IMG/VR virus record: IMGVR_UViG_3300044624_003021 | Span: 17,666-81,665 of that record | Origin: a virus | DNA length: 64,000 nucleotides | Strand: one strand, 5' to 3' | Shown here: positions 2,795 through 53,220 of the stretch, one piece after another | Layout: every line of letters starts with the position of its first letter | Position numbering within the stretch: position 1 is the stretch's first letter | The notes under the pieces: generated by a model | Told to the model about the DNA's origin: nothing | Databases searched by the model: none | The model's input: only the letters and a program-made list of their open reading frames with translations | Program-made: the position numbers and the translations under genes

Positions 2795-4660
2795 TTATCT
2801 CAATTCTCTTAAATCAAATGTACGAACACCATCAATTGTAATTCTGCCATAGAAGCGGTTGTTGACCATCTTCTTCGCGTAACGTGTCATGATACCTTTG
2901 ATTGGTGTGAAGTTGAATGGATTGTACATAGTTGGAGTTAATTGAAGTGGTACATACGGTGCGTAAATGTAACCAGTATCAAGTAACGATGTACCTTTGT
3001 GACCAATCAATATTTGGTTCGGTGGGAAGTATGGGTCACGATAAACCTGGTAACGACCAGCTAAAGTACCCACTCTTTCAATACCCATGTTGTATTGGTC
3101 TTGCTCAGGAGACGCATTTGAAACGTGGAAATATTCCAAGTCATCAAAGATTGCAGAAACCTCAGATGATACAACAATCCAGTTAGCACCACCACGAAGA
3201 GTTGACTTGTGGATTTGAGCTGACAATTGGTTGATTGCAGTAATCAATGTTTGGTTCCAATCTTTCTGAGTGTAAGAAGTAGTTTGAGAAATTCTTCTCC
3301 AACCGTTGTAGTCCCAACGTAAGTTCCAAGCGGCACCCTTACGAAGGTCACGAAGAATTTCACGGTCAATTTCCGCAGCTACTTGCTCTGACAATAAAGC
3401 CGTCAATTCAGCTTCAGCGTCAATGTTGTGGAATGCCGCAACGTCTTGAGCAAGTTCTGGAGACCACTGAGCTCTTAACTTTCTTTCAGTTACAGAAACA
3501 GTTACAGACTCAAGGTCGAAAGAAACTTCACCGATTTGGTCTTCGAATTCTAAGTTCTTATAACGTCTGAATACTGCACTTAAGTTAGTTAAACCTAAAG
3601 TATCAATAGTCGTACCTGTATAACCATCTAAAGTGGTACCTGAACAAGTTGCACAAACAGGACAAGAAAGGTCAACTTCCAAATAAATGTCACCTGTTGG
3701 GCTACAAATATCGTTGAATGAACCTCCGTTACCTTGTGCTGGCCATGGAACTGGAGTGCGAGTGTTTAATCCGCTAACGATACCTTGACCATATTGTTGA
3801 GTCACAACTCTAAACAATAATGAATTTGGGTCTCCAGCATCGTCAAATACTACTGAACAAGGACTTTCTGCGTCAACGAAATCATTTGTTGCAAATACTC
3901 TTAAATCAGACAAGAAAGTTTCTGAATCGTATTCATTACCATCAGGTCCAATTAATTTACCATTACCAACATTAGCAAAACCGCTAATTTTAACGATAAC
4001 TTTTCTAACGTTCAAACCATCAAATTCGCCACCATAGTTAACCAATGAACCATTTGACCAAACTTGAACGTCACCGGGTACAGTAACTGCAGACCACTGT
4101 CCTTTTGAATAGTCAAACAAACCTGGAGGGTCTAATTGACCTTCATTACCTTCATAAAACAAATCATAAAGGTTCTTTTGGAATTGGTTACCAGTTGTAT
4201 ACCCTGATGTCGGTGAACCAGGATAAGCACCTGGTGACCCAACTGGACTCAAGTGACCACCTGAAGAACCATCGTAGTTATTTGATGGTAATTGTGGGTC
4301 AAAGTATGGATTACCCGCATTGTAAGCCTGAATCTTTGGTACGAAGTAGAACAACTTACCGATTGGTAAGTTCATAGCTTGTACTGATACGATTTCATTA
4401 GCAAGTAACTTAGAGAATACACGTCTAACGATTGGGAATACAACAGTTTCAAATGAACCTGAAGAACCGTCAGAAGTAGCTTCGTTAATCAAATGTGACG
4501 CTTGGTTTTCATATAACTGCGCTACATTTTCTTTTAGGTGGCCTTTAAGACCTTCAAGGAACCCTAATTTGTCCCATTTGTTGATAGTATCTTCTTTGAT
4601 AACTTTAAGGTGCTTAAGACCGATGTTACCAACAAGACCTGATTCTAATAATGCTCCCAT
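2795..4660 (-). CDS. Major capsid protein, T4 gp23-like
   Basis: A 621-aa protein with a gp23-type N-terminus: an amphipathic start, then the ESGLVGNIG and FPIVRRVFSKL regions. At residues 58-61 the sequence is INE-A, which matches the T4 prohead protease consensus (L/I-x-E then A/G/S) at nearly the place where gp23 is cut (after residue 65). Maturation by the window's own gp21 homologue is therefore expected after Glu60. It is the last gene of the cassette that begins with the terminase, and it is followed by a strong terminator. T4 gp23 forms the hexamers of the head. Confidence 0.93.
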   Translation of the reverse strand: MGALLESGLVGNIGLKHLKVIKEDTINKWDKLGFLEGLKGHLKENVAQLYENQASHLINEATSDGSSGSFETVVFPIVRRVFSKLLANEIVSVQAMNLPIGKLFYFVPKIQAYNAGNPYFDPQLPSNNYDGSSGGHLSPVGSPGAYPGSPTSGYTTGNQFQKNLYDLFYEGNEGQLDPPGLFDYSKGQWSAVTVPGDVQVWSNGSLVNYGGEFDGLNVRKVIVKISGFANVGNGKLIGPDGNEYDSETFLSDLRVFATNDFVDAESPCSVVFDDAGDPNSLLFRVVTQQYGQGIVSGLNTRTPVPWPAQGNGGSFNDICSPTGDIYLEVDLSCPVCATCSGTTLDGYTGTTIDTLGLTNLSAVFRRYKNLEFEDQIGEVSFDLESVTVSVTERKLRAQWSPELAQDVAAFHNIDAEAELTALLSEQVAAEIDREILRDLRKGAAWNLRWDYNGWRRISQTTSYTQKDWNQTLITAINQLSAQIHKSTLRGGANWIVVSSEVSAIFDDLEYFHVSNASPEQDQYNMGIERVGTLAGRYQVYRDPYFPPNQILIGHKGTSLLDTGYIYAPYVPLQLTPTMYNPFNFTPIKGIMTRYAKKMVNNRFYGRITIDGVRTFDLRELR

Positions 4661-4688: not shown

Positions 4689-6158
4689 TTATTTTAATTT
4701 TGCCATTAAATCTTTCATTCTAAGGAATTGAGGATTTTCATAAGTTTTTGATTCAATTAAGTTAACCGCAGAACCTGTAGCCGGAACTGATTCAATTTTA
4801 CGTTCGATTGACTCGTTCATTGGTTGACTTTGTACCGTTGAAAGCTCATCCTTGATTGATTTATACAAATTCTTCGATTCTTTAAGAGTTTCAACACCAT
4901 CAAATCTTTTCAAGATGTTAATTTTTTCTTGTTTAGATGTTGAATGTTCAGTAAACAAACGTGTTGCGTATGCCAAGTTTGAATTGAATACCGCTACCTC
5001 GTTTAATTTATTTCTGAACACGTTAAGTGCCTTTCTATACTCTTCGTTTTTCTCTCTAAGAATTTGTAACTCGTTTGAATCCACACCTTCAAAAGTTAGG
5101 TTTCTATTAGGAGTAATCCCTTTTCTTAGACCACGACCTGATTTAGAACCATTACCATATGTACGTGCGGCTTCTTTTGTTTCCGTTTTCTTAGCGCCTT
5201 TTGGTTTAATTTTGAATTCGCCATCAAGAGTTTCCTTATCTTTGTATACATTAACTTTTTTAGCGTTACCTGTACCCATAGTTTTGTTAGCACTCTTTTT
5301 AACAACTTTAAACCCTTCACCTTGATTTGGATTTTTATTATATGAGAATTTTGGTTTACCCATGTTCTTACCTTTTGCTTTGAACGTCTTTTTAGACTCT
5401 TCTAAAGATTCATTGTATTCTTCCTCTTCTTCGTCTTCATCAGGCGTTTCAATTTCGTACACCATACCTTCAGTTTCCTCTTCCTCCTCTTCTTCATCGG
5501 AGTCGTCAGACATTTCGATTTCGTACATAATTTCGTCACCTTCTGAATATTCATCGCTAAATTCCATGTCTTCTTCAGAATCCATTTCTTCTTCGTCTGA
5601 TTCTTCATCATCAAACATTTTAGAAACGATGTCTTCAATTGATTCGTCAGTAGAATATGATTTCTCCATTTCCATAGATTCTTCCATTTCTTCTGACTCA
5701 TAGAATTCTTCTTCCATTTCTTCGTCAGATTCACCTACAATCATGTATTCATTTTCTTCATCTTTGATATTGATGTTTCCAGCATCGTCTTTTGTTACGA
5801 TAATGTTATCATCAGGTCCCATAAGTTGAAATACACGAAGTACTTCTTCATCTGACTTGTCGGTAAGGTCGATAGGTTCTTCCATATCTTCCATTTCGTC
5901 ATCAGTATCCATTTCCATACCCATGTCCATTTCATCAGAGTCCATTTCGTCGTCTGTTTCCATTTCAGGTCCTTCCATGTCTACATCAGTCATTTCAATC
6001 TCATCTTCTTCTTGTTCAGATAGAGATTCCTTTACTAGCTCTTTGATTTCTTCCTTCATAGTAGAAGCAAGTATTCCTTTTGCATTTTCAGCAACCGCTT
6101 CTTCCAAATTTCTCATTTGGATGATTGCCTCTTCAACAATTGATTTTTCTTTTGCCAT
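4689..6158 (-). CDS. Prohead core scaffold-like protein (gp22 position), very acidic
   Basis: A 489-aa protein with three parts: a long Glu/Asp/Ser/Met-rich region (about residues 40-250), a basic stretch (about 255-345), and a helical C-terminus (about 355-489) with a coiled-coil look (LREKNEEYRKALNVF). It sits between the prohead protease and the capsid gene, the place of scaffold gp22 in T4. Several (L/I)-x-E sites near the ends fit protease digestion during maturation. The fold and position support a scaffold; sequence similarity to T4 gp22 itself cannot be judged by eye. Confidence 0.72.
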   Translation of the reverse strand: MAKEKSIVEEAIIQMRNLEEAVAENAKGILASTMKEEIKELVKESLSEQEEDEIEMTDVDMEGPEMETDDEMDSDEMDMGMEMDTDDEMEDMEEPIDLTDKSDEEVLRVFQLMGPDDNIIVTKDDAGNINIKDEENEYMIVGESDEEMEEEFYESEEMEESMEMEKSYSTDESIEDIVSKMFDDEESDEEEMDSEEDMEFSDEYSEGDEIMYEIEMSDDSDEEEEEEETEGMVYEIETPDEDEEEEEYNESLEESKKTFKAKGKNMGKPKFSYNKNPNQGEGFKVVKKSANKTMGTGNAKKVNVYKDKETLDGEFKIKPKGAKKTETKEAARTYGNGSKSGRGLRKGITPNRNLTFEGVDSNELQILREKNEEYRKALNVFRNKLNEVAVFNSNLAYATRLFTEHSTSKQEKINILKRFDGVETLKESKNLYKSIKDELSTVQSQPMNESIERKIESVPATGSAVNLIESKTYENPQFLRMKDLMAKLK

Positions 6159-6507: not shown

Positions 6508-7233
6508 TTAGTACTTCAAATAATCGTTCAATTTTTTCATTAAGTCAAGCGATTTGTTTGAACTTTCACCTGAAACTCTTTGTGCTTTCATTTTGTTCTC
6601 CTCCTCCAAGTTTTCTTCAAAGTTAAATCTGTCATTTGGCTCCAAGAATAGATAAGCACCAGGTGTTGATGGTGACCATACAAGGTCAAAACAAATTAAT
6701 TCAAAATCGTCCTGTACTTCGTTTTGTTCTCCAATTTTTTTAAGTGACCCCACACCACGAGATGAGATACCAAGTGTTACACCTTGTCTTAAAAGATTTG
6801 CCGCTTGGTCTCCTTTTGTAGAAACAATTCCTCTTTCATGAAAACCTGGCGAAGTGAGTAATTTTAATTTACCCATCAAAACAGGACCTTCCCACCATAT
6901 ATCGGTAATTGCATGAGAAACTCTATCTAAATCGACAAGTGATGACTCAGGGTGATTTAATTCAGACAAAGCAATACCTTTACCAATCATTTTTTTATAA
7001 TTGTCGGCTTCTCTTTTTAATACTTTTTCAGGATATATTCTACCGTTTCTATTTGGAGTATTGTATTTTTGTAGTACCGCATAAAACTCAAATGGTTTTG
7101 AGTGGTCCAACATTCCTTTAGACTCACGGATTAAATTGGCGTTACGTTGTTCCGTAGGTGAAATATAACCCGCATCGTGTTCAACAAGTAATCCCTTACC
7201 TATTTGACCGGGTTGTATAATTTGATGATTCAT
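6508..7233 (-). CDS. Prohead core protease, T4 gp21-like (S80 family)
   Basis: A 241-aa protein with the features of the gp21 family: NRNGRIYPEKVL near residue 62, the catalytic His region ELNHP (His94), and the Ser region GISSRGVGS (Ser157 or Ser158). Lengths around 210-240 aa are usual for the family. It would cleave scaffold, capsid and internal head proteins after (L/I)-x-E. Matching sites occur in the capsid protein and at the N-termini of many small proteins of this window. The preceding ATATTTATAAA motif lies about 15 nt upstream of the ATG. Confidence 0.92.
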   Translation of the reverse strand: MNHQIIQPGQIGKGLLVEHDAGYISPTEQRNANLIRESKGMLDHSKPFEFYAVLQKYNTPNRNGRIYPEKVLKREADNYKKMIGKGIALSELNHPESSLVDLDRVSHAITDIWWEGPVLMGKLKLLTSPGFHERGIVSTKGDQAANLLRQGVTLGISSRGVGSLKKIGEQNEVQDDFELICFDLVWSPSTPGAYLFLEPNDRFNFEENLEEENKMKAQRVSGESSNKSLDLMKKLNDYLKY

Positions 7234-7254: not shown

Positions 7255-7725
7255 TTAAAGATTGTCGGTTTCTATTTTCTCTACCTTAGTTTTTTTGGTT
7301 TTTGTAAGTTGGAACTTGAAGTATTCGTTGTTTGTGAAGTTTTCCTGAAATAATTGTTTGCATATTTTTTTAAGTGACTCTTTGAGTCGTCTTGATTTAA
7401 AATCACCCTCATCTCCTGTCAAATAAAAATTTATTTCCAAATTTAAAAATGACTTTTTACCTTTTTGTAATCCGCTTGAACGTAAATCTAAATCAACAAT
7501 AAATTTATTATCAAATAATGTTTTGTCTAAAGAATCTAAGACCGAATGTTTTATAAACCGACTTAAGTTTAAAACTATTCTATTCCAATTTTCAGAATTT
7601 ATCTTGGGTTCGACCCATGTTTGAATGTTTAAATACAATGACTTGAAATTAACTGAATCTACCGTGCCATAAACTACTTTGGCCGTTTTAAACCCCTGAA
7701 TCTGTGAGGTCTTTCCTTTTTTCAT
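7255..7725 (-). CDS. Unknown head-cassette protein
   Basis: A 156-aa protein when started at the ATG at 7725; an in-frame TTG just before it is less likely. Basic and beta-rich, without signal peptide or membrane segment. It lies between the portal-side gene and the prohead protease, where T4 has gp67/gp68, but no similarity to those is evident. It runs divergently from the bS21 homologue. Confidence 0.75.
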   Translation of the reverse strand: MKKGKTSQIQGFKTAKVVYGTVDSVNFKSLYLNIQTWVEPKINSENWNRIVLNLSRFIKHSVLDSLDKTLFDNKFIVDLDLRSSGLQKGKKSFLNLEINFYLTGDEGDFKSRRLKESLKKICKQLFQENFTNNEYFKFQLTKTKKTKVEKIETDNL

Positions 7726-7767
7726 CAACTTTCCATATTATACAAGTTTATTTTTAAAAAAAATAAG

Positions 7768-7775
7768 TATATTTG
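7768..7775 (+). promoter_or_regulatory. Host-type -7 box (TATATTTG) upstream of the bS21 homologue
   Basis: TATATTTG fits the Bacteroidota -7 consensus TAnnTTTG; the -33 element is poor. A second, partial copy (GATATTTGTAAT) lies just before the start codon. Confidence 0.5.
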
Positions 7776-7820
7776 TACCGATAGTCAAAAAAAAACTTAT
7801 TTTAAAGATATTTGTAATAT

Positions 7821-8012
7821 ATGTTAATCGTTAAATTAGATAAAAATATTAATATTGAGAAGGCACTTAAAATTCTTAAGAGCAAAGTTATTAAAACAAA
7901 ACAAACCTCTGAGTTGGTTAATAGAAAAGAATATACCAAAAAATCTATTAGAAAAAGAGATATTCTTAAAAAAGCCAAATACGTTCAAAAAAGAAAAGAC
8001 TCTGAGGATTAA
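7821..8012 (+). CDS. rpsU: Ribosomal protein bS21 homologue
   Basis: A 63-aa, highly basic protein. It follows the bS21 pattern: an N-terminal beta strand (MLIVKLDKN), a helix with IEKALKILKSK, a break near TSELVNRKEYTK, then a second basic helix (SIRKRDILKKAKYVQKRK). Length equals that of bacterial bS21. It is the only plus-strand gene in the virion cassette and overlaps the convergent neighbour by 4 nt. bS21 sits by the anti-Shine-Dalgarno of 16S rRNA; in Bacteroidota it is part of the group that hides the anti-SD. Incorporation into host ribosomes is inferred from reported viral bS21 genes. Confidence 0.82.
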   Translation: MLIVKLDKNINIEKALKILKSKVIKTKQTSELVNRKEYTKKSIRKRDILKKAKYVQKRKDSED

Positions 8013-8731
8013 AGACTTTCGTTCAAGTTCTTTAATCTGAAGTATGACAATTTATTATACGTCTCAGAATCAACTTTTGTTATTGTTTCTTCAACTCTGT
8101 CTAAAGTGTCATTATCTTGTGTGCCTTCCTTCAAAGAAGTTAATTTTGTTTTAACCTCATTTTTAATTGACTCAAACTGAGGTTCCAATTCAGAGTCTTC
8201 GGTCTTTAAAAATTTAATTAAATCTTGTCTGTCAGACTCATTTAAATTTTCAACGTAATTTGAGAAAGTTTTATTTGCAATATTAATCATAGTTGAAATC
8301 GGCAAATTAACTGTTTCTGTTTTTTTGGTTTCAGTAGACTTAATTAAGTTTTCAGAAATAACCTTTTTACTTTTTAAACGAGACTCAATTGTTAAAACGT
8401 CAGTTGAAAACAAATTATCAATGTTCTCGTACTTATTATCACATTTAACATCAGAAACCCATTTCTTTAGATTGTTGATTGTTGATTCATCAATTTTATT
8501 TACGGTGTTCTCATAAATTGTAACACATTCATAGATGTAATCATTAACCAAAGATTCGTTTAAACCTTTATTTGAACTCATTTCATCGTATAGATAAAAC
8601 AACTTACTAATATTCTTATTACCCAAAACTAAAGACTTAAAATTCCTCATTTCAGATTTAAAAGTATTCTTAGAATAAGATTCAAGTAATTTTTCTTCAA
8701 TCTTTGATTTAATATTTCCGAACTTAATCAT
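8009..8731 (-). CDS. Unknown head-cassette protein
   Basis: A 240-aa, largely helical protein with many Lys, Glu and Asn residues, located directly after the portal gene. It ends in LNESL, a motif like the prohead protease sites, so it may be an internal or scaffold component. An ATATTTATA motif lies upstream of the ATG. Confidence 0.78.
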   Translation of the reverse strand: MIKFGNIKSKIEEKLLESYSKNTFKSEMRNFKSLVLGNKNISKLFYLYDEMSSNKGLNESLVNDYIYECVTIYENTVNKIDESTINNLKKWVSDVKCDNKYENIDNLFSTDVLTIESRLKSKKVISENLIKSTETKKTETVNLPISTMINIANKTFSNYVENLNESDRQDLIKFLKTEDSELEPQFESIKNEVKTKLTSLKEGTQDNDTLDRVEETITKVDSETYNKLSYFRLKNLNESL

Positions 8732-8752: not shown

Positions 8753-10594
8753 TCAATCTCTCAGAAGTTTTTCTAGTTGAGACTCCATTTGACCTAATGA
8801 ATTTTTAGCTTTAGATAAATCGATATAAGAATCCTCTTCAAATAATGAGTCCGATTCTAATAAAATATTTAAATTATCTCTATTAAACGATTCAGGAGTT
8901 ATTCCACCCTCTTCACCACCTGGTGGAGGTGGTGGAGGAGGTAATTCAGCTCCTCCAGGTTCAGGACCCAAACCTCCCATTTCACCTCCCATATCACCTC
9001 CTGGAGGTGGTGGAGGAGTTGCAGCGGATGAAGCGGTTGCTCCTGAACCAGGTCCTCCATATAATTTATCCACATTATCAAATATACCTGTGTGAGCAAT
9101 AATTGTGGCGGTGTTTGTTAACTCAGCTCCAACGGCCTTTTCAATACGTTGTTGTTGTAAATCAAGTTTAATTTCTTCATCACTGAATCCAAGAATATGT
9201 TTTTTAGCCCAAGACACAGACACTGGAGCAATACCTTCAATAGCCCCAACCGCATCTTTGTATAATAACATCTTTTCTTTCCAAACATCGATTTTAAGTA
9301 AGTCAGCTTGGGTCGATGGGTTAGTTAATCCTAAAGTAAAATTAGTTAACTCATCCTCAAAACCTAATAAGAAAAGGTGAATAATAGCAATTTTGTTCAA
9401 TTCGGCAATCATACACTTTTGGATTCTGTTTATTGTACGAGCAAAACGAATATCTTGTAAAGATAAATTTTTACCTTCCCCTACAACTTCCTCAAAGCCT
9501 AAAAACGCTTTTGGAACACGAAGTGCAGTTAAAAGTTTCTTTTGGATATATTCAATGTCAGCTATTTCCGATAAGTTTTTAGCCCCGTCTAATGTTTCAA
9601 TTGGTGACGCTTGAGCCGGGTCACGAACAGGAATAAAGTAATCTTGGTCAACCGCCATTTGATTGAATCTCAAATCGACATTACCTGTTTGGCTGTCAAC
9701 AACCTGACTACGTTTAAATTTATTTGCAACACGTTGTACATACGCCTCAACATCTTTATCGTCCATATTACCAACAAACACTTTAAACACACGTCTTTCA
9801 GGTGCTCTTGATGTTCTATATATCAACATCGCATCCTCTGATAACAATAATTGTTTCCAAATACGACGAGCTTTTTCCAACATAGAAGTACCGTAAGGAA
9901 GTTTTCTATCATCACCCATTAATCTAAAGTGAGCAATCTCCCATGAATTGAATTCCATGTCTTTTGCCTTCCACTTAAATCTTAAACCTCTATTTTCTTT
10001 TGGTTCCTCTACGTTTTGAGATTTTGCCGGCATACCTCGTTCCAAACGTTCAATCTCAATGTTTGGGAGTTGCATACAACCGACAACACCCTTGTCCGAA
10101 TCCAATTTTAAATAAACAAAATTATCACCATACTTACAAGTGTTTCTTGTCCACATTGGTAAGTTAGTATTTACGTCTAATGCGTTATTGAACAAATCCG
10201 CAAGTATTCCTTTTATTCTTTTTGACTCAGAATAAATCTGTAACATATAACCATATTGGTCAACAGTAGTTGATTCTTCCCCATAAATGTCCAAAGCTGC
10301 CGATATCTCAGGAGTATATTCCATAGATTCGTAATCGTAAAATGAAGCCAATCTTGTTGGTTCATAATATACCGCTTGAGTATAAAGATTACTTTCAATT
10401 TTTGTCCATTGGTTGGCAAGGTAGTATGTTTGTTGAGCTTGTAATAACTCTTTTTCATATTCCTGCTTGGACGTAGTTTTTAATAATTCTTCTTTATCAA
10501 ACTTATAGGTTGGATAGTCTTGGTTTAATAGTGCGTTTGGTCCAAACGCTCTTGTGAGTCTTTGCCAAACCGTAAATTGTTTATTATTTTCCAT
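8753..10594 (-). CDS. Portal vertex protein, T4 gp20-like
   Basis: A 613-aa protein, longer than T4 gp20 (524 aa). The gp20 core is recognisable: early WTKIESNLYTQA, then AALDIYGEES, the stem/wing blocks, IEYIQKKLLTALRVPKAFLGF and GKNLSLQDIRFARTI. Residues about 510-565 form a Pro/Gly/Met-rich low-complexity tail with two runs of prolines. This is unusual for a portal and may be an added or disordered extension. The protein forms the dodecameric DNA channel and terminase docking site. The gene follows the terminase directly, as in T4 once gp18/gp19 are removed. Confidence 0.92.
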   Translation of the reverse strand: MENNKQFTVWQRLTRAFGPNALLNQDYPTYKFDKEELLKTTSKQEYEKELLQAQQTYYLANQWTKIESNLYTQAVYYEPTRLASFYDYESMEYTPEISAALDIYGEESTTVDQYGYMLQIYSESKRIKGILADLFNNALDVNTNLPMWTRNTCKYGDNFVYLKLDSDKGVVGCMQLPNIEIERLERGMPAKSQNVEEPKENRGLRFKWKAKDMEFNSWEIAHFRLMGDDRKLPYGTSMLEKARRIWKQLLLSEDAMLIYRTSRAPERRVFKVFVGNMDDKDVEAYVQRVANKFKRSQVVDSQTGNVDLRFNQMAVDQDYFIPVRDPAQASPIETLDGAKNLSEIADIEYIQKKLLTALRVPKAFLGFEEVVGEGKNLSLQDIRFARTINRIQKCMIAELNKIAIIHLFLLGFEDELTNFTLGLTNPSTQADLLKIDVWKEKMLLYKDAVGAIEGIAPVSVSWAKKHILGFSDEEIKLDLQQQRIEKAVGAELTNTATIIAHTGIFDNVDKLYGGPGSGATASSAATPPPPPGGDMGGEMGGLGPEPGGAELPPPPPPPGGEEGGITPESFNRDNLNILLESDSLFEEDSYIDLSKAKNSLGQMESQLEKLLRD

Positions 10595-10630: not shown

Positions 10631-12391
10631 TTACCTACCTCCGAATAACCAATTATATTTCATATAATCGTCTCTGGTGACATTCTGTTGACCATATTGA
10701 TTGATTTTTTCATTGATATTTGGTAATACCGGATTAAACGCAAGTTGGTTAGTTACATTATCATTATTACTTACAGACCACGAATCAATCATGGCCTTTG
10801 TTTGTTCTGTAACTTTGGTTAATTGACTGAAAGATGACTCAGCAACATATGTTGCCATGGCGATTGACATAATTAAGTCATCGTGATGACCCTTTTGGTG
10901 GTCAGGTCTTCCGTTAATGTAAACAAATGTATTCATCTCATTAAACAAACGACTACTATAAATTTTAAAATCATGTCTCATGACTTCCTCAAACGAGGCT
11001 ATGATTTGAACTCTTTTGTTATTAAAATTAATACCCGGTATTTTTTCAGCGGCCTTTGGGTCCCACTTCCATTTGTTTGCAACATCAACACCATCAACAT
11101 ATAGATTTTTAAATCCAATCTCTTGCATTTTTCTTGCTGTTGATACCCCCATTCCTCCGGTTATATCTATTACGACAAAACAAGAATACATATTGGCCCA
11201 TTTATAACAAATCTCAGCCATTGTATCAGGAGGTAACTTACCAACGTACTCGGCAACTTGTTCTCTCTCATCAAAATCTATAATTTGAAATGAACTAAAG
11301 TCTTCACTATCTCCTCTACTAACGTCAACCCCCATAACATATTTGTGACCAACAACTGGTTCTTTCCAAATCCAAAGAGCGTTACCCATCATCTTATTTT
11401 GAGGTTCTCTTATATAATTTTCTCTAACTCTTTGTAACAAATTAGAATCAAATACGTTATCACCCGAACCCAAAAAGTTACATTCTAACTCTTGAGATAC
11501 TTTACGTTTATCGTATTTAAGTTTCTTAACCATACCCTCAAACCAAGCCGAACAAGGTTTATAACCTGTATCCATAATAAGTTTAAGTTCTTCGTAGTTT
11601 CTATCGTCAAAGGGTATACTCTCCCAACTTATAACATCGTCCTTACTATACTCTTCTTTGTTTAGTAAGTAATGAATAATATCTTTAGTTTTAACCAAAT
11701 ATAAATCTCTGGTATATCTTGGGTCTCTAAACCAATACATCTCAGAAATTTTGAAATCATTCATATTTCTTAATGCTTGGTCATAAATCTCATAATAGAT
11801 TGGGTCATATCCATTAGGTGTTGAAACTACAATTACTTTACCACCCGTAGATAGGGACGCCATACAAGCCGCCCAAAAATCAGAATCTGCGTCGATAAAC
11901 GCGGCCTCGTCAAATATAAGTATCGTTGGGGTGAATCCACGAAGTGCATCCTTTGATGTCGCAACCGCCTTTACTTCACATCCATTATTTAATTTATAGT
12001 GTTTTTGAGAGTCTTTCTCGACGGAAAATCCAACACCAACCCACTCAGGCCATTGTGTTATAAACGCTCTTATTTTATTTGCCATTTCTTGAGATGTGTC
12101 AAGTTTGTTGGCGATAATTAGAATTTTTTCAGGTTTGTTTTTCTTTGCGAAGGCTAACTTTTTTGATACCCAAGCAGCGGTAACCGTAGAAACTCCTGCC
12201 TGTCTATATTTTAATGCAATATTTTCGTTAAAGTTTTCATAGTCATCAAGTAACGAAATTTGGTCAGGAAATAGTTCTAATGGAACATACTTCGAAACGG
12301 TATTGTCATAAGTTTGTAAATAGGTACGTAGTGCGTATGGAGTATCCTTCATGCACTTTACGTACTCAAGCATTAATTGTTCTTTTGTCAT
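10631..12391 (-). CDS. Terminase large subunit, T4 gp17-like
   Basis: A 586-aa ATPase-nuclease. The adenine-binding/Walker A segment is RQAGVST (63-69), a variant of the gp17 type. Walker B is ILIFDE with Asp161-Glu162. Nuclease acids are Asp356 (GVDVSRG), Asp409 (VVIDITG) and Asp504/Asp505 (GHHDDLIMS), typical of the RNase H-like nuclease fold. It packages DNA into proheads through the portal. A terminator and then an AATATTTATA motif (12407-12416) precede the gene, so it likely starts its own transcript. Confidence 0.95.
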   Translation of the reverse strand: MTKEQLMLEYVKCMKDTPYALRTYLQTYDNTVSKYVPLELFPDQISLLDDYENFNENIALKYRQAGVSTVTAAWVSKKLAFAKKNKPEKILIIANKLDTSQEMANKIRAFITQWPEWVGVGFSVEKDSQKHYKLNNGCEVKAVATSKDALRGFTPTILIFDEAAFIDADSDFWAACMASLSTGGKVIVVSTPNGYDPIYYEIYDQALRNMNDFKISEMYWFRDPRYTRDLYLVKTKDIIHYLLNKEEYSKDDVISWESIPFDDRNYEELKLIMDTGYKPCSAWFEGMVKKLKYDKRKVSQELECNFLGSGDNVFDSNLLQRVRENYIREPQNKMMGNALWIWKEPVVGHKYVMGVDVSRGDSEDFSSFQIIDFDEREQVAEYVGKLPPDTMAEICYKWANMYSCFVVIDITGGMGVSTARKMQEIGFKNLYVDGVDVANKWKWDPKAAEKIPGINFNNKRVQIIASFEEVMRHDFKIYSSRLFNEMNTFVYINGRPDHQKGHHDDLIMSIAMATYVAESSFSQLTKVTEQTKAMIDSWSVSNNDNVTNQLAFNPVLPNINEKINQYGQQNVTRDDYMKYNWLFGGR

Positions 12392-18534: not shown

Positions 18535-20583
18535 ATGACTGAACCAATGGATAATGACGGAAAAAGCAAAAGCAAACCAAAAGGAGATTCGTCAACTCCA
18601 GTCCTTGATAATTTTAGTAGAGATTTGATAAAGTTGGCTGAAGAAGGTAAACTTGACCCTGTTATAGGTAGAGAAAGAGAAATAACAAGAATTGCCCAAA
18701 TTTTATCTAGAAGAAAGAAAAATAACCCAATTATTATTGGCGAACCTGGTTGTGGTAAAACCGCAATTGTTGAGGGTCTTGCCATTAAAATTTTTGAGGG
18801 AGATTGTCCAAGAAATTTGATGGACAAAAGAATTGTGTCTTTAGACATGACATCAATTGTTGCCGGTACAAAATACCGTGGTCAATTTGAAGAGAGAATG
18901 AAAGTTATTATTGAAGAACTACAATCCTCTCCAAACATTATTGTCTTTATCGATGAGATTCATACAATAGTTGGGGCCGGAAATTCATCGGGTTCTTTGG
19001 ATGCGTCCAATATCTTTAAGCCAGCACTTGCTAGAGGAGAAATTCAATGTGTTGGAGCAACAACATTGGATGAATATAGAAAGAATTTTGAAAAGGATGG
19101 TGCCCTCGAACGAAGATTCCAAAAAGTTGTTGTTGATTCGGCAACAAAAAAAGAAACATTTTTGATTCTTAAGAATGCTAAGGATAAGTATGAAACTTAC
19201 CATAAAGTGAAATACTCTGATGAAATTCTTAATCTTTGTGTTGATTTGGCAGAACGATATATAACCGACCGTGAGTTTCCTGATAAAGCTTTCGACATTA
19301 TTGATGAAGTAGGAGCTCGTAGTCAAGTTGAGATTAAGGTTCCTGAAATTATCGACCAATTGAAACAACAAGCAACCGATATTAAACAACAAAAAATTGA
19401 GGTTGTTAAAAAACAGAACTATGAAGAGGCTGCAAACTTACGAGATAAGGAAAAGAAAATTATTAGTAAGTTGGAAGATGAGAAAAAGAAATTCGAGGAA
19501 GAATTAATCTCACAGAAAAGAGAAATCACAACAGAATTGGTTTATGAAACCGTTTCTAACATGACCAAAATTCCAATTTCTAAATTAGATTCTGACGAAA
19601 CTAAGTTGTTAACTAAACTTGAGGAAAATTTATCCGGTAGGGTTATCGGTCAGGCACCGGCTGTTGCAAAAATTGCAAAATCTATCAGAAGAAATAGATT
19701 GGGTATCAAGGACCCAAACAAACCAATTGGTTCATTTATATTCTTAGGTTCAACAGGCATCGGAAAAACATTACTAGCCAAAGAACTTGCAAAACAAATT
19801 TTTGGTAGTGAGGATAACCTTATCAGAATTGATATGTCAGAGTTTCAAGAAAAACATACAATATCTCGTTTGATTGGAGCTCCTCCAGGATATGTTGGGT
19901 ATGATGAAGGTGGTCAGTTGACAGAACAAGTTAAAAACAAACCATATTCTGTGATTCTATTTGATGAAATTGAAAAGGCAAACAAAGACATTTTCTCAAC
20001 TCTATTACAGGTATTGGATGACGGTCACGTTACAGATGGTTTGGGTCGTAAAATTAATTTCAAAAATTGTGTGATTATTATGACATCGAATATTGGGGCG
20101 AAAAAATTACAAGATTTTGGCGCTGGTATCGGATTTAAGAGTGTTAACACTTACGTTGAGGAGGAGTATAAAAGAGACGTTTTGAAAAAAGAACTTCAGA
20201 AGTTTTTTGCTCCAGAATTCTTAAACCGTATTGATGAAGTTATTGTCTTCAATAGTTTGAAAAAAGAAGATATTCAACAAATTGTTAAACTTGAGCTTGA
20301 TAAACTTTGTAATAGATTAGTTGGTCTGAAATACAACATCACATATGAACAGAGTGTAACCGATTTAATTTCTGAGGTTGGTTTCGATGAACAATTCGGG
20401 GCTCGTCCTTTAAAGAGAGCAATCCAAGACAAGATTGAGGACTATATTTCTGAAGAAGTATTAAAAGGTAACATTGTAGAAAATGGTGATTACCAATTGT
20501 ATGTAGAAACCAAAGAAATTAAAATTAAACAGGTTACCACAATAAGTCCTGTGAAAAAGACAAGAAAGAAAAAAGGGGAGTAA
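18535..20583 (+). CDS. ClpC/ClpA-type AAA+ unfoldase without N-domain
   Basis: A 682-aa ATPase with two AAA+ modules: Walker A GEPGCGKT (69-76) with Walker B VFIDE, and Walker A GSTGIGKT (405-412) with Walker B LFDEIE. A short UVR-like middle segment (NYEEAANLRDKEKKI) places it with ClpC. The protein starts directly at module D1; the substrate/adaptor N-domain of about 140 residues is absent. An IGF tripeptide (532-534) lies where ClpA/ClpC carry the ClpP-docking loop, so pairing with host ClpP is likely. No ClpP gene is in the window. Confidence 0.92.
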   Translation: MTEPMDNDGKSKSKPKGDSSTPVLDNFSRDLIKLAEEGKLDPVIGREREITRIAQILSRRKKNNPIIIGEPGCGKTAIVEGLAIKIFEGDCPRNLMDKRIVSLDMTSIVAGTKYRGQFEERMKVIIEELQSSPNIIVFIDEIHTIVGAGNSSGSLDASNIFKPALARGEIQCVGATTLDEYRKNFEKDGALERRFQKVVVDSATKKETFLILKNAKDKYETYHKVKYSDEILNLCVDLAERYITDREFPDKAFDIIDEVGARSQVEIKVPEIIDQLKQQATDIKQQKIEVVKKQNYEEAANLRDKEKKIISKLEDEKKKFEEELISQKREITTELVYETVSNMTKIPISKLDSDETKLLTKLEENLSGRVIGQAPAVAKIAKSIRRNRLGIKDPNKPIGSFIFLGSTGIGKTLLAKELAKQIFGSEDNLIRIDMSEFQEKHTISRLIGAPPGYVGYDEGGQLTEQVKNKPYSVILFDEIEKANKDIFSTLLQVLDDGHVTDGLGRKINFKNCVIIMTSNIGAKKLQDFGAGIGFKSVNTYVEEEYKRDVLKKELQKFFAPEFLNRIDEVIVFNSLKKEDIQQIVKLELDKLCNRLVGLKYNITYEQSVTDLISEVGFDEQFGARPLKRAIQDKIEDYISEEVLKGNIVENGDYQLYVETKEIKIKQVTTISPVKKTRKKKGE

Positions 20584-23002: not shown

Positions 23003-23379
23003 GGGGGTAACTTGGAATTGACTAGCATGGTTGATTACTCGGAGCATGTCGAGGCTGAACTAACCTTGTAAAACTGGTTCACACGATAAACGGCAACGTT
23101 ATCAACAAACTCTCTGCAGTTGGTCTTATCCGTACTGAGGAGAACATTTCAGTAGCCTAATCTAGGATTAGCCTACAAAACGGGTCGGTAAGCATACAAC
23201 CTTGGAACAGAAGCTCGTACTGTGGTGTGGTTTCTACCCGAAAAGAAGCACAACTCGTTTGTGGTTTTGAGAGCTCAAAAACCAATATTTCGGAACATTG
23301 AGAAGCGATGTTGACCTAAACATGTAGGGCTTAGTAGTTAAAATGAGTAGGAAGGGGTTCGACTCCCCATACCTCCACC
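23003..23379 (+). ncRNA. ssrA: tmRNA
   Basis: About 377 nt. The 5' end GGGGGTA pairs with TACCTCC at the 3' end, with the G-U pair at position 3 typical of tmRNA. GAGCATGTCGAGG and the T-arm GGTTCGACTCC are characteristic. The open tag frame that ends at TAA (23158-23160) finishes in EENISVA; the resume codon is not certain. That stop lies in a hairpin, as in helix 5 of other tmRNAs. The usual Bacteroidota tag ends in ALAA, so this tag end is unusual. The final CCA is not fully encoded (CC then G). Strong terminator follows. Confidence 0.9.
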
Positions 23380-23383
23380 GTAA

Positions 23384-23864: not shown

Positions 23865-23928
23865 TGTACTATTTTTTTATATAAATATATGAAAAATAAA
23901 AAAGGTGGGTTTCCCCACCTGTGATTTG

Positions 23929-24001
23929 TTGCAACTGAAGGATTCGAACCTCCGACCTTCAGGTTATGAGCCTGACGAGCTGGCCTCTGCTCTAAGTTGC
24001 G
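23929..24001 (-). tRNA. tRNA-fMet(CAT), initiator-like
   Basis: A 73-nt cloverleaf with acceptor CGCAACT/AGTTGCA, giving the C1 x A72 mismatch that marks bacterial initiator tRNAs. The D-stem is GAGC/GCTC and the anticodon arm TCAGG-CTCATAA-CCTGA-AGGTC is nearly that of E. coli tRNA-fMet. The anticodon stem has two G-C pairs at its base rather than the usual three. CCA is not encoded. It forms the 3' end of the transcript carrying the large structured RNA. Confidence 0.88.
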
Positions 24002-24892
24002 ATGTAATAGTTGAACTAAGCCTGAGATTACAGCTTTGAGTGAGAACCTTTTGAAGGATTATTGTTTCCCTTCTTATCCACTTCCTTTTGAGAAGTATTT
24101 CTCAGTCACGGTCTTTTAGGTTTACCACTCCTTGAGGTTTAAGTTACTCTCTTATTACTTAACTCTTTCCGAGGTTGCCACCCCAGTTCATCCTTGCGGG
24201 ATTAAAGGTTTTTCGTAAAACTACAGTTAGACTTGGGGTCTTTCTGTGCCACGGACAACCCGTGACTGTGTAGTGACCTTTCACTCAAACCTGATGGACA
24301 CTTTTCCTTTAATTATTGTTCATAATTTTAGATTTGTGTCGTGGATGTGTCAGAGTAGTGGTCCACCGTAAGCTCCGTCTCCTTTTGGGTGACGAAATAC
24401 TAAACTACTCCGTGAGATATCCCTATCTCCATACTTTCAGATTACTTCATAAAGAGACCTTGGTAGGTCATCTTTAGGGGTAGTAGCGACACCACTCGTT
24501 CTCTACCTTACCTTTCGGTTTTAAATCCCCTTCGGTATTGGAATCCGCAATTGTGTAGTTGGAGCTACGTTTCTTACTTGATTCCTATGGGTTATTCTTG
24601 TTGGTGTTCCCACCTCAACTTGACAATCCACTTTGCCAAGTCACCTGACCACTTTCCCTACAGTGTTACCCTCGGTACTAAAGGTCTTGTGATATCCCAC
24701 TTGTGTACTCGAGTTCCTTTCGAAACCGCAACCTCCTCAACACGGGGGAGGTCACTTTATCCTACTTTCGTAGTTTATTTAAGGACCATACACGGCCCAT
24801 TATCTTTTATCAGTTGTCATCACCCGAAGGTTACTTTCACTGAATGGATAATCTTACTTTTCAAAGAACTTCTTCGGTCATTCCCGAATTGT
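24002..24892 (-). ncRNA. Large structured non-coding RNA (about 0.9 kb), GOLLD/ROOL-like candidate
   Basis: No plausible gene lies here, GC is visibly higher than in neighbours, and the minus strand folds into a long series of short perfect hairpins. Examples (minus strand): TTCGG/CCGAA near 24873-24888, CTAC-GAAA-GTAG, ACCTCC/GGAGGT, GTTTC-GAAA-GGAAC, GGTG-GGAA-CACC, GAGATA/TATCTC, CACGG/CCGTG and TGTAAT/ATTACA near the 3' end. It begins at a TTTG-N20-TAAATTTG promoter, has a boxA-like sequence right after it and ends at the tRNA. Giant ornate RNAs of the GOLLD and ROOL classes are known from phages next to tRNAs; membership is inferred from size and context only. Confidence 0.75.
24858..24872 (-). 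promoter_or_regulatory. boxA-like antitermination element in RNA leader
   Basis: GAAGTTCTTTGAAAA on the minus strand, about 25 nt after the promoter. It resembles the boxA of Bacteroidota rRNA leaders. Related sequences follow two other stable-RNA promoters of the window. Confidence 0.5.
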
Positions 24893-30932: not shown

Positions 30933-31961
30933 TTATTGGACCACAAATTTGTTTGTGGACGTTATTGTACCATTTCGGTCAACCGTGTTAAGAACGTAGA
31001 TTCCCGAAGAAAGTAATGATTTAACATCAATAACAACTTTACTTTGGTTTACATTTTCTTCATATACAATTTGACCTGACAAATTCATAATTCTTAGTTT
31101 TTGACCACTATAATCGTTCAGACCAGACAAATCAATATTAATAACATCTGTAGTTGGGTTGGGGAATACATCAATGTTTATAACTATGTTGGGGTTATCA
31201 GTATTAGTTGGGTTTTGGGAATTTGAATCTCTATAAAGTTTAAAAACTTCATCCTCATTCAAATCTCGATTCCACATTCCTACATCATCTAAATTACCTG
31301 ATAAAAATCTGTACATATTACCTTGGAAATTATCAGCTCCAAAAAATAAATTATTTTCAGATGGACAAATATCACCATATGTAGTTTGTTCACCGGTTAA
31401 TACTCCATTAACATACATTTTTCCACCATTTACAGGACTATGAGTAAAGACTAAGAAATGCCATTTATCATCAGCAGTACAAGTTCCACCATTAACATTA
31501 TTACCATTAATTGTATTCATATTAGTTGATGATATAAAGTTATTATCACCTATCAACATTGTATATGAATCAAAAGACCCTCCATTACATACATCAAAGT
31601 ATGAAAAAAACCATTTAGTAACAATTCCTTGGTAATCATCTACACTACTACCGACAGGTTTTTTTAACCATACAGAAATTGATAACGATGGGACGTTAGA
31701 AATACTTTCAGAATTATCGACCAAAATAAAATTATCAATTCCATTAAAATTATAGGCCATATCAGAATTACCAAATCTATCCATAGTTAAAGACGAACCA
31801 AAAACCTGTCCGTGGTTTTGATTTCCACTTTCATCATTGGCATTACCGTCAAACGGCCACCAACCGATAAGACCATTTGTTGGTAAATAATTTGGTACTT
31901 GAGATACAATCAAGTTGTAATAAAAAAGAGAAATTAATGTAAAAAAAATTGTTTTTTTCAT
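30933..31961 (-). CDS. Secreted LamG-domain protein with type IX secretion sorting domain
   Basis: A 342-aa protein: signal peptide ending IVSQ; residues about 30-245 are a LamG/concanavalin-like fold (GLIGWWPFDGNANDESGN, SISVWLKK, DDVGMWNRDLNEDE); residues about 262-342 form a type A Por/T9SS C-terminal domain (NIDVFPNPTTDVINID, LSSGIYVL, TNKFVVQ). In Bacteroidota this tail sends proteins through the type IX machinery to the cell surface. The ligand is unknown, perhaps a glycan. Presence in a phage implies use of the host's T9SS. Confidence 0.88.
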   Translation of the reverse strand: MKKTIFFTLISLFYYNLIVSQVPNYLPTNGLIGWWPFDGNANDESGNQNHGQVFGSSLTMDRFGNSDMAYNFNGIDNFILVDNSESISNVPSLSISVWLKKPVGSSVDDYQGIVTKWFFSYFDVCNGGSFDSYTMLIGDNNFISSTNMNTINGNNVNGGTCTADDKWHFLVFTHSPVNGGKMYVNGVLTGEQTTYGDICPSENNLFFGADNFQGNMYRFLSGNLDDVGMWNRDLNEDEVFKLYRDSNSQNPTNTDNPNIVINIDVFPNPTTDVINIDLSGLNDYSGQKLRIMNLSGQIVYEENVNQSKVVIDVKSLLSSGIYVLNTVDRNGTITSTNKFVVQ

Positions 31962-49156: not shown

Positions 49157-51034
49157 TTACTTAGGTTGTACTTCTTCAAAATCTACGTCTGAAACTTCTT
49201 CATCCATAGTTTGACCGCCTTCACCTTCAGAACCAGACTGACTATAAATTCCTTGGGTAATTGTTTGAGATGTGATTGCAACTTTTGCAGTTGCGTCTCT
49301 AACCTTTTCAACTTCCTTCTCTTGTAGGGCTGTTTTTAATTCAGCCAAAGCATCGGTTAATTGAGTTTTTTGTTCATCGGTCATTTTTTCTTCTAAATCC
49401 TTTAGAGTTTTTTCAGCTTGGAACGCCATAGAATCTCCTTGATTTATTATGTCAGCATTTTCACGAGCTTTAGCGTCCGCTTCGGCATTTAACTCAGCAT
49501 CACGTTTCATTTGTTCAATTTCCTCTTTAGAAAGTCCTGTCGAACTTTCAATACGGATTGATTGCTCTTTGTCAGTGGCTTTGTCTTTTGCTGAAACATT
49601 GATAATACCGTTAGCATCGATGTCAAAAGTTACTTCGATTTGTGGAACTCCTCTCATTGCCGTTGGAAGACCATCAAGGAAGAAACGACCAATTGTTCTA
49701 TTGTCTTGAGCCATTGCTCTTTCTCCCTGTAGAACGTGAATTTCTACTGATGGTTGATTGTCAACTGCGGTTGAGAAAACTTGTGACTTTTTTGTCGGAA
49801 TTGTTGTGTTTGACTCAATAAGTTTTGTGAATACTCCACCCATCGTTTCAATACCGAGTGAAAGTGGTGTTACATCCAACAACAATACGTCTTTAACGTC
49901 ACCTGCGAGTACTCCTCCTTGAATTGCAGCACCAAGTGCTACAACTTCATCAGGGTTAACTCCTTTTGATGGTTCTTTACCGAAGAACTTTTTAACTGCC
50001 TCTTGGATTGCAGGAATTCTAGTTGAACCTCCAACCAAGATAACTTCATCGATGTCTTTTGGTTTCAAACCTGCGTTTTTCAAGGCCGATTTACATGGTG
50101 CAATTGTACGTTGTACCAAACTGTCAACCAACTGCTCGAACTTTGCCTTTGTCATTGTACGAACCAAGTGTTTTGGCATACCATCTACCGGCATAATGTA
50201 AGGAAGATTGATTTCCGTTGATGGTGAAGATGAAAGTTCAATCTTTGCTTTTTCAGCTCCTTCACGAAGACGCTGAAGTGCCATTGGGTCTTGATTCAAA
50301 TCCAAACCATTTTCATCTTTGAACTCTTGAACGAGCCAGTCGATAATTGCTTGGTCAAAGTCATCACCACCTAGGTGTGTATCACCGTCAGTTGACAAAA
50401 CTTCAAATACCCCATCACCAAGTTCAAGAACCGATACGTCGTGAGTACCACCACCACAGTCAAACACAACAACTTTCATATCCTGACCTTTTTTGTCAAG
50501 ACCATAGGCAAGTGCCGCCGCGGTTGGTTCGTTAATAATACGTTTAACAGTTAGACCTGCAATTTCACCGGCTTCTTTTGTTGCCTGACGTTGAGCATCA
50601 TTGAAATATGCTGGTACTGTAATAACCGCATCAGTTACTGTTTCACCCAAATAGTCTTCGGCAGTTTGCTTCATTTTCTGAAGAACCATCGCCGAAATTT
50701 CCTGAGCTGAAAACTTCTTGTCCTCAATTTGAACACGAGGAGTGTTACCCTCACCTTTAACCACTTTATAAGGAACACGCTTGATTTCTTTTTTACTTTC
50801 ATCGAAACTTGCTCCCATAAAACGCTTAATGGAGTAAACTGTTTTATCAGGATTTGTAACCGCTTGACGTTTTGCCGGGTCACCAATCTTTCTATCACCA
50901 CCATTTGCAAAACCAACAATCGAAGGGGTGGTTCTTTTTCCTTCACTGTTTGTAATCACAACAGGTTCGCCATTTTCCATAACGGCAACACATGAATTTG
51001 TTGTTCCTAAATCAATACCTATAATTTTACCCAT
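49157..51034 (-). CDS. dnaK: Chaperone DnaK (Hsp70)
   Basis: A 625-aa full-length Hsp70: [17 protein letters not shown] at the N-terminus, [18 protein letters not shown], phosphate and adenosine motifs ([12 protein letters not shown]), substrate domain ([16 protein letters not shown]) and a lid ending in an acidic tail ([14 protein letters not shown]). No DnaJ or GrpE gene lies in the window, so it would use host co-chaperones. Phages with a complete dnaK are uncommon. Confidence 0.96.
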
Positions 51035-52362: not shown

Positions 52363-53220
52363 ATGAAAAACACAAAAATTTATCACGAGTTGGTCCAAAA
52401 GATGAGGACCTTTTTCCTAAACAAAGGTTTTCTTGAGGTTCCGACCCAATCAAGATTATCAATTCTCGCAGCATGTGAGAATCCACACTCAATCACAACG
52501 TTTGAGTATCAAGGTCAAATTTGGCCATTACCACAAACAGGTCAAATGTGGTTAGAGTATGAATTGTTACAAAATTCCGAATGGCCAGGTGTGTTCTGTA
52601 TCTCAACATCATACAGACAAGAAAAAGACCCAATCCCAGGTCGTCACGAATTAATCTTCCCAATGTTTGAATTCGAGTCAAAGGGTGGTATGAAAGAATT
52701 ACTTAAATTAGAATCTGAATTACTTGCGTTTTTAGGTTTTGATTCTCCTGTTGAAGTGAATTATGACGATGTTTGTGAAGAATATGGCGGAGTTCCGATT
52801 TTGGAAAACGAACACGAAACTAAAATGTGGAAAGAAAAAGGTGATGTGGTGTCATTACAAAATTTCCCTGTTAGAACTAACCCATTTTGGAACATGAAGT
52901 CAGGTGAAGGTGACAAATTCAATAAAGTAGACGTTATTCTTTACGGTCAAGAAACAATTGGTTCTGCTGAAAGAAGTTGTGATGTTGATGAAATGAGACA
53001 AATGTTCTATACTATAGAAAACGGTGGTTATTCTGCCAAATTGTTTGAATTGTTTGGTAAAGAAAGAGTTGAAAAAGAACTTGAAGAGTTTTTATCTCAC
53101 AAATTCTTTAAAAGATTTGGTGGAGGTATTGGTTTAACTCGTCTTGCCAGAGCATATCAAATGATGAAAGACTCTCACGATGAATTACACATGAATTATG
53201 GTGATGTAAACAAATTTTGA
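52363..53220 (+). CDS. Class II aminoacyl-tRNA synthetase catalytic core (Asn/Asp type)
   Basis: A 285-aa protein with class II motifs: GFLEVPTQSRL near residue 22, motif 2 as STSYRQEKDPIPGRHELIFPM (81-101) and motif 3 as GGGIGLTRLARA (253-264). GQETIGSAERS matches the AsnRS/AspRS active-site strand. The N-terminal anticodon-binding domain of AsnRS/AspRS is absent. Such cores include asparagine synthetase-like and tRNA- or protein-modifying paralogues, so true tRNA charging is uncertain. The terminator upstream suggests attenuation. Confidence 0.82.
   Translation: MKNTKIYHELVQKMRTFFLNKGFLEVPTQSRLSILAACENPHSITTFEYQGQIWPLPQTGQMWLEYELLQNSEWPGVFCISTSYRQEKDPIPGRHELIFPMFEFESKGGMKELLKLESELLAFLGFDSPVEVNYDDVCEEYGGVPILENEHETKMWKEKGDVVSLQNFPVRTNPFWNMKSGEGDKFNKVDVILYGQETIGSAERSCDVDEMRQMFYTIENGGYSAKLFELFGKERVEKELEEFLSHKFFKRFGGGIGLTRLARAYQMMKDSHDELHMNYGDVNKF

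Follow-up and report, generated by a model that had tools for sequence, protein, structure and literature searches.

The window analysed here, a stretch of 64,000 nucleotides corresponding to positions 17666-81665 of a linear virus record that is 81,665 bases long, contains a T4-like capsid cassette and, antisense to the rest of it, a small gene for a homologue of ribosomal protein bS21. The features that bear on this gene are as follows:

2795..4660, minus strand: major capsid protein (MCP, Gp23), by family match
4689..6158, minus strand: putative scaffold/prohead core protein, acidic, 489 aa, assigned by position
6508..7233, minus strand: prohead protease (Peptidase_S77), by family match
7255..7725, minus strand: divergent conserved hypothetical protein, 156 aa, MKKGKTS start
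7726..7820, no strand assigned: intergenic region of the divergent genes, shared by bS21 and the leftward gene
7796..7820, plus strand: 25-nt leader without a Shine-Dalgarno (SD) sequence, -1.3 kcal/mol against the 16S tail
7808..7815, plus strand: promoter-like box ATATTTGT, ending 5 nt before the bS21 ATG and differing at one base from the phage motif ATATTTAT
7821..8012, plus strand: phage bS21 (rpsU-like), 63 aa, ATG start
8009..8731, minus strand: convergent conserved hypothetical protein, 240 aa, whose stop overlaps the bS21 stop
8753..10594, minus strand: T4-like portal (Gp20), by family match
10631..12391, minus strand: terminase large subunit (TerL), by family match
23003-23380, plus strand, and 24019-24412, minus strand: phage tmRNA (RF00023, 93 bits) and GOLLD RNA (RF02032, 320.6 bits), in opposite orientation
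23928..24001, minus strand: initiator-type tRNA-Met, with C1xA72 and A11:U24

The cassette runs in the order TerL, portal, 240-aa hypothetical, bS21, 156-aa hypothetical, S77 protease, a 69-aa hypothetical, putative scaffold and MCP. The matches to gp23, the S77 protease, the T4 portal and TerL bear out the first-pass annotation, which had placed a bS21 gene at 7821-8012 within a capsid cassette; the 489-aa gene between the MCP and protease genes has no family match and is called a scaffold by its position. The bS21 product matches Pfam PF01165 (Ribosomal_S21) with 29.9 bits against a gathering score of 27 (E=4.6e-7; residues 4-56 on profile positions 2-54 of 55) and PHROG 21469, 'ribosomal protein S21' (E=0.0018). 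Its top PDB chain is the bS21 of Flavobacterium johnsoniae, 7jil, found with E=3.3e-6 from the single sequence and with E=2.6e-15 when the family profile is used, and the alignment to bS21 extends over residues 1-61, including the Bacteroidota C-terminus. The equivalog cut-off of NCBIfam TIGR00030 (S21p) is not reached (21.4 versus 28.95 bits, E=1.6e-4). By these comparisons the protein is a divergent homologue within the family, a claim that stops short of equivalent function.

The AF2 model has two helices (residues 12-36 and 41-62; pLDDT 83.8, pTM 0.43). A Foldseek search with this model found just 11 PDB chains up to E=10. All come from ribosome structures and fit bS21, yet with a best E of 0.4 none is individually significant; VIA-align against bS21-type chains gave Z up to 5.3. 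The structural check that had been proposed thus gave two helices and S21-type chains but no significant fold match, and the identification rests mainly on sequence. In viral sequences, 193 relatives lie within the tblastn limit, and 80/80 of those fetched retain the order of the cassette together with the antisense bS21, losses at fragment ends aside. The phage genes are also under purifying selection, with dN well below dS (NG86; e.g. 0.061 versus 0.446 against the relative L016), which together with the relatives and the kept gene order argues that this open reading frame is not a chance one. With the Pfam score, the 7jil match and the conserved relatives, 7821-8012 is confirmed at the sequence level as a phage-encoded version of bS21, the ribosomal protein of Bacteroidota. 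A deeper lineage, whose bS21 is about 45-54% identical to that in the window, shares this layout and carries additional sequence behind bS21.

The arrangement itself has been described before. Chen et al. reported an antisense bS21 in 47 Bacteroidetes phages, together with late transcription and a ribosome-takeover hypothesis (PMC9723584); takeover had also been raised by Mizuno et al. in 2019, who found that the bS21 of pelagiphage HTVC008M enters E. coli 70S ribosomes (PMC6375957). The pelagiphage protein is likewise phage-encoded, but it belongs to another phage and host phylum, and it is likened to the present one without a sequence comparison. In the phages of Chen et al. (clades a-e), bS21 is encoded antisense to TerL, portal, protease and MCP, with conserved hypothetical genes on both sides; judged by layout, the window is the same. 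An aromatic residue at position 54, N-terminal divergence and low GC are also held in common; R21, F23 and T28 of Chen et al. correspond to S21, V23 and Q28 in the window's bS21, and the related record G011 measures 322 kb compared with 293-331 kb for the phages of Chen et al. There is no demonstrated difference in kind from these phages, and the window's phage is a further example of a published arrangement. The text of Chen et al. mentions neither the lack of an SD, nor a promoter box next to the start codon, nor an initiator tRNA, three features of the window's phage; relative to the literature searched, the SD absence and the box are new here.

The leftward 156-aa protein is possibly the bS21_CN of Chen et al. 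It has no family match, and no fold was assigned to its AF2 model (pTM 0.81). Its gene adjoins bS21 in 77/78 loci where the neighbour could be tested; the exception, L314, has the cassette and the divergent gene without bS21, so that at least one phage can do without this protein. (In L314, the gap where bS21 is absent, at about 2370-2500, holds a terminator-like hairpin.) Given the presence of the protein in L314, and given that it has neither a family nor an assigned fold, a role as a factor for bS21 exchange was set aside.

In Bacteroidia, the anti-SD of 16S rRNA is sequestered by bS21, bS18 and bS6 (McNutt 2023, PMC9976891), and a contact between Tyr54 and A1534 has been reported. Phage bS21 aligns with the Flavobacteriales protein (7jil) over its full length and is of the same family, and its Tyr54 corresponds to the residue that, in F. 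johnsoniae, stacks on A1534 of the 16S 3' tail, giving it the aromatic residue that marks the anti-SD-sequestering, Bacteroidota-type bS21. The residue for anti-SD hiding, a role of bS21 raised in the first-pass annotation, is retained. Position 54 is Tyr in 16/22 and His in 6/22 phage variants, compared with Tyr in 70/72 and His in 2/72 host variants. With Tyr54 retained, the anti-SD would be expected to stay hidden, and the protein should support the SD-less mode of initiation that the host normally uses.

There are 15 phage-specific positions, 13/15 of which fall within residues 4-37, and in a tree that has few columns and leaves out the deeper lineage, the phage copies form a single clade with support of 100/99 on a long branch (length 1.26). 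The clustering of changes in the N-terminal half with position 54 conserved, as Chen et al. report for their phages, is what would be expected if the divergent half shifts mRNA preference towards phage late transcripts, as proposed by Chen et al. (2022), and late co-expression in related phages (PMC9723584) fits this as well. A simpler proposal is that the phage merely supplies a late-joining, exchangeable protein so that more 30S subunits are complete, leaving selectivity and host feedback unchanged. Tyr54 and an apparently conserved fold, and dN well below dS, agree with such a supply, as does the finding that initiation on SD-less mRNAs is poor when ribosomes lack bS21 or the C-terminus of that protein (PMC9976891). 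However, supply alone leaves unexplained the long branch with its strong support and the N-terminal changes across the clade, and we consider this proposal unlikely.

The leader of the phage gene separates it from its host counterpart. The host gene rpsU is subject to autoregulation: its extended SD is read by ribosomes that lack bS21 (PMC9976891). Pairing energies were computed for 25-nt leaders against the 16S tail GAACACCUCCUUUCU; the corresponding tail DNA GGAACACCTCCTTTCT was matched in 2/4 Flavobacterium genomes searched, and an alternative tail pattern, GGATCACC, had no match in the genome search. Among the 80 loci nearest F. johnsoniae, which constitute the Flavobacterium set, all 80 host rpsU leaders pair at -19.0 to -21.6 kcal/mol (median -21.5), whereas the bS21 leader of the window's phage, whose putative host is assigned solely from Bacteroidota-type features, has no extended SD, defined as pairing below -13 kcal/mol. 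The 22 distinct phage bS21 leaders, which are related rather than independent, have a median of -1.8 and a strongest value of -6.6 kcal/mol (-7.3 with a slightly different tail), and those of the deeper lineage, in the same cassette, are SD-less as well (-0.3 to -0.8 kcal/mol). A huge phage of 735 kb has an SD-like bS21 leader (-12.1 kcal/mol). Among a broader Bacteroidota host set, the 30 best matches in 148 genomes, 23/30 rpsU leaders fall below -13 kcal/mol and 7/30 have no SD, so that the feedback loop may be absent in some hosts. In several Bacteroidota genomes a second chromosomal rpsU copy (L212-L217) pairs at -1.4 to -9.8 kcal/mol and so lacks the strong SD that the primary copy has, and loss of the SD may thus be ordinary for extra copies.

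The phage's genes are also SD-less overall (median -1.3 kcal/mol; in a separate calculation the median equals that of shuffled leaders, although 9.6% of leaders versus 3.4% of shuffles lie below -6). A search that covered SD pairing and position-wise A content found the leaders to be A-rich and SD-less, which speaks against a changed mRNA preference, and so does the mixture of leaderless and short-leader initiation geometries described next; we therefore regard the selective proposal of Chen et al. as rather unlikely. Nor is it established that the phage changes how the host's ribosomes choose starts, as the first-pass annotation had suggested, since the phage genes are SD-less overall and Tyr54 predicts the normal mode of the host.

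The geometry comes from promoter-like boxes, with gene starts taken from our own calls. The motif ATATTTAT is enriched 35-fold ahead of phage genes, with 23 copies within 45 nt of starts. In record G000 it ends 4-7 nt before the ATG in five genes (0.09 expected over 3-7 nt) and lies at 10-25 nt in 13; in 7 genes, the end of the Bacteroidota -7 box TANNTTTG lies 4-5 nt ahead of the ATG, where 0.44 would be expected over 3-7 nt. In the part of G011 examined, 3 and 4 genes have ATATTTAT and TANNTTTG, respectively, in those close positions. Ahead of bS21, the PWM score of ATATTTGT is reached at 62/163,300 positions in the genome, which for a scan of 20 positions gives p~0.008, and the 5-nt spacing from box to ATG is common to most distinct relatives. 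A box of this late type ahead of bS21 also agrees with the simple supply considered above. Some boxes do stand in a leaderless position, so the leaderless-type mRNAs claimed earlier are plausible at the level of promoter geometry. Leaderless bS21 as a universal trait was rejected: the leaders of L020, L022 and L073 in the near clade score no better than background, several of the L027/L040/L046 groups score weakly, and in the deeper lineage ATATTTAT stands some 17 nt upstream. Elsewhere in the intergenic region, GTCAAA at 7784-7789 (TTTGAC on the leftward strand, -33-like) and TATATTTG at 7768-7775(+) may be promoter elements of the divergent genes. Upstream of bS21 in L227-L232 and L236-L244, the inverted repeat AGTCAAAACTTGACT or a close variant, a possible operator, lies between the divergent genes; the window has only GTCAAA.

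The initiator tRNA reported in the same genome was found again; two G:C pairs adjoin its anticodon loop, but it has A29:U41. It lies beside the GOLLD RNA, where other relatives carry other tRNAs. Such a tRNA was found in 4/25 bS21-phage records (G000, G001 and G003 by pattern, G004 by ARAGORN beside GOLLD), many of the 25 being fragments, and the 322-kb G011 has no match to the pattern; a general partnership with bS21 was accordingly rejected. The tmRNA, missed by ARAGORN, is separated from GOLLD by about 640 nt, and both RNAs occur in the same 14/25 records, a co-occurrence to be expected in part, given the fragmentary records and the closeness of the two genes. The window also encodes a Clp-type AAA+ ATPase (18535-20583, plus strand), an Hsp70 (49157-51034, minus strand), a class II tRNA synthetase-like protein (52363-53220, plus strand) and a LamG-like protein (30933-31961, minus strand) with, by eye, an apparent T9SS C-terminal sorting domain that fits a Bacteroidota host.

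GOLLD is also present in phages not known for bS21. Its occurrence in these 14 records invites an extraribosomal role, in which phage bS21 might bind an RNA such as GOLLD by analogy with Halalkalibacterium, where bS21 binds an SD/anti-SD-like helix of OLE RNA (PMC12054373); ribosome binding by GOLLD has been reported in pull-downs (PMC12286853), and an ACCUCC/GGAGGU hairpin at 24731-24752(-), in the presumed GOLLD 5' region, resembles an SD/anti-SD helix. However, the hairpin is limited to the window's record and a near-identical relative and is absent from other GOLLD loci. Partnership through anti-SD mimicry was rejected for this reason, and an extraribosomal role is highly improbable.

Taken together, these observations are compatible with a scheme, to which we give about an even chance, in which phage bS21 is made outside host feedback, fills host 30S subunits, retains anti-SD hiding and displaces host bS21. 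The protein would most likely be made late in infection and would join 30S subunits at the normal bS21 site. Its Tyr54 would keep the anti-SD tail tucked away, allowing fully assembled ribosomes to translate the SD-less phage mRNAs. Because its own mRNA lacks an extended SD, its synthesis should not drop as ribosomes fill; since bS21-free ribosomes preferentially translate host rpsU, the filling of those subunits should lower host bS21 synthesis and switch rpsU off, and the ribosome pool would gradually come to carry the phage version. Incorporation of this protein, rpsU repression and a benefit to the phage are inferred. In its strongest form, which is possible but doubtful, the SD-less gene would break the host loop so that host bS21 synthesis collapses and the pool is converted, the opposite of the speculation of McNutt et al. 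that rpsU autoregulation helps the host to recover (PMC9976891).

Among Bacteroidota, the autoregulation of rpsU provides a well-defined example of ribosome specialisation. A phage copy without the host control sequence suggests a way in which host S21 may be displaced, and the absence of this control element from every related phage leader tested would allow hijacking of the loop to be tested directly in the tractable F. johnsoniae.
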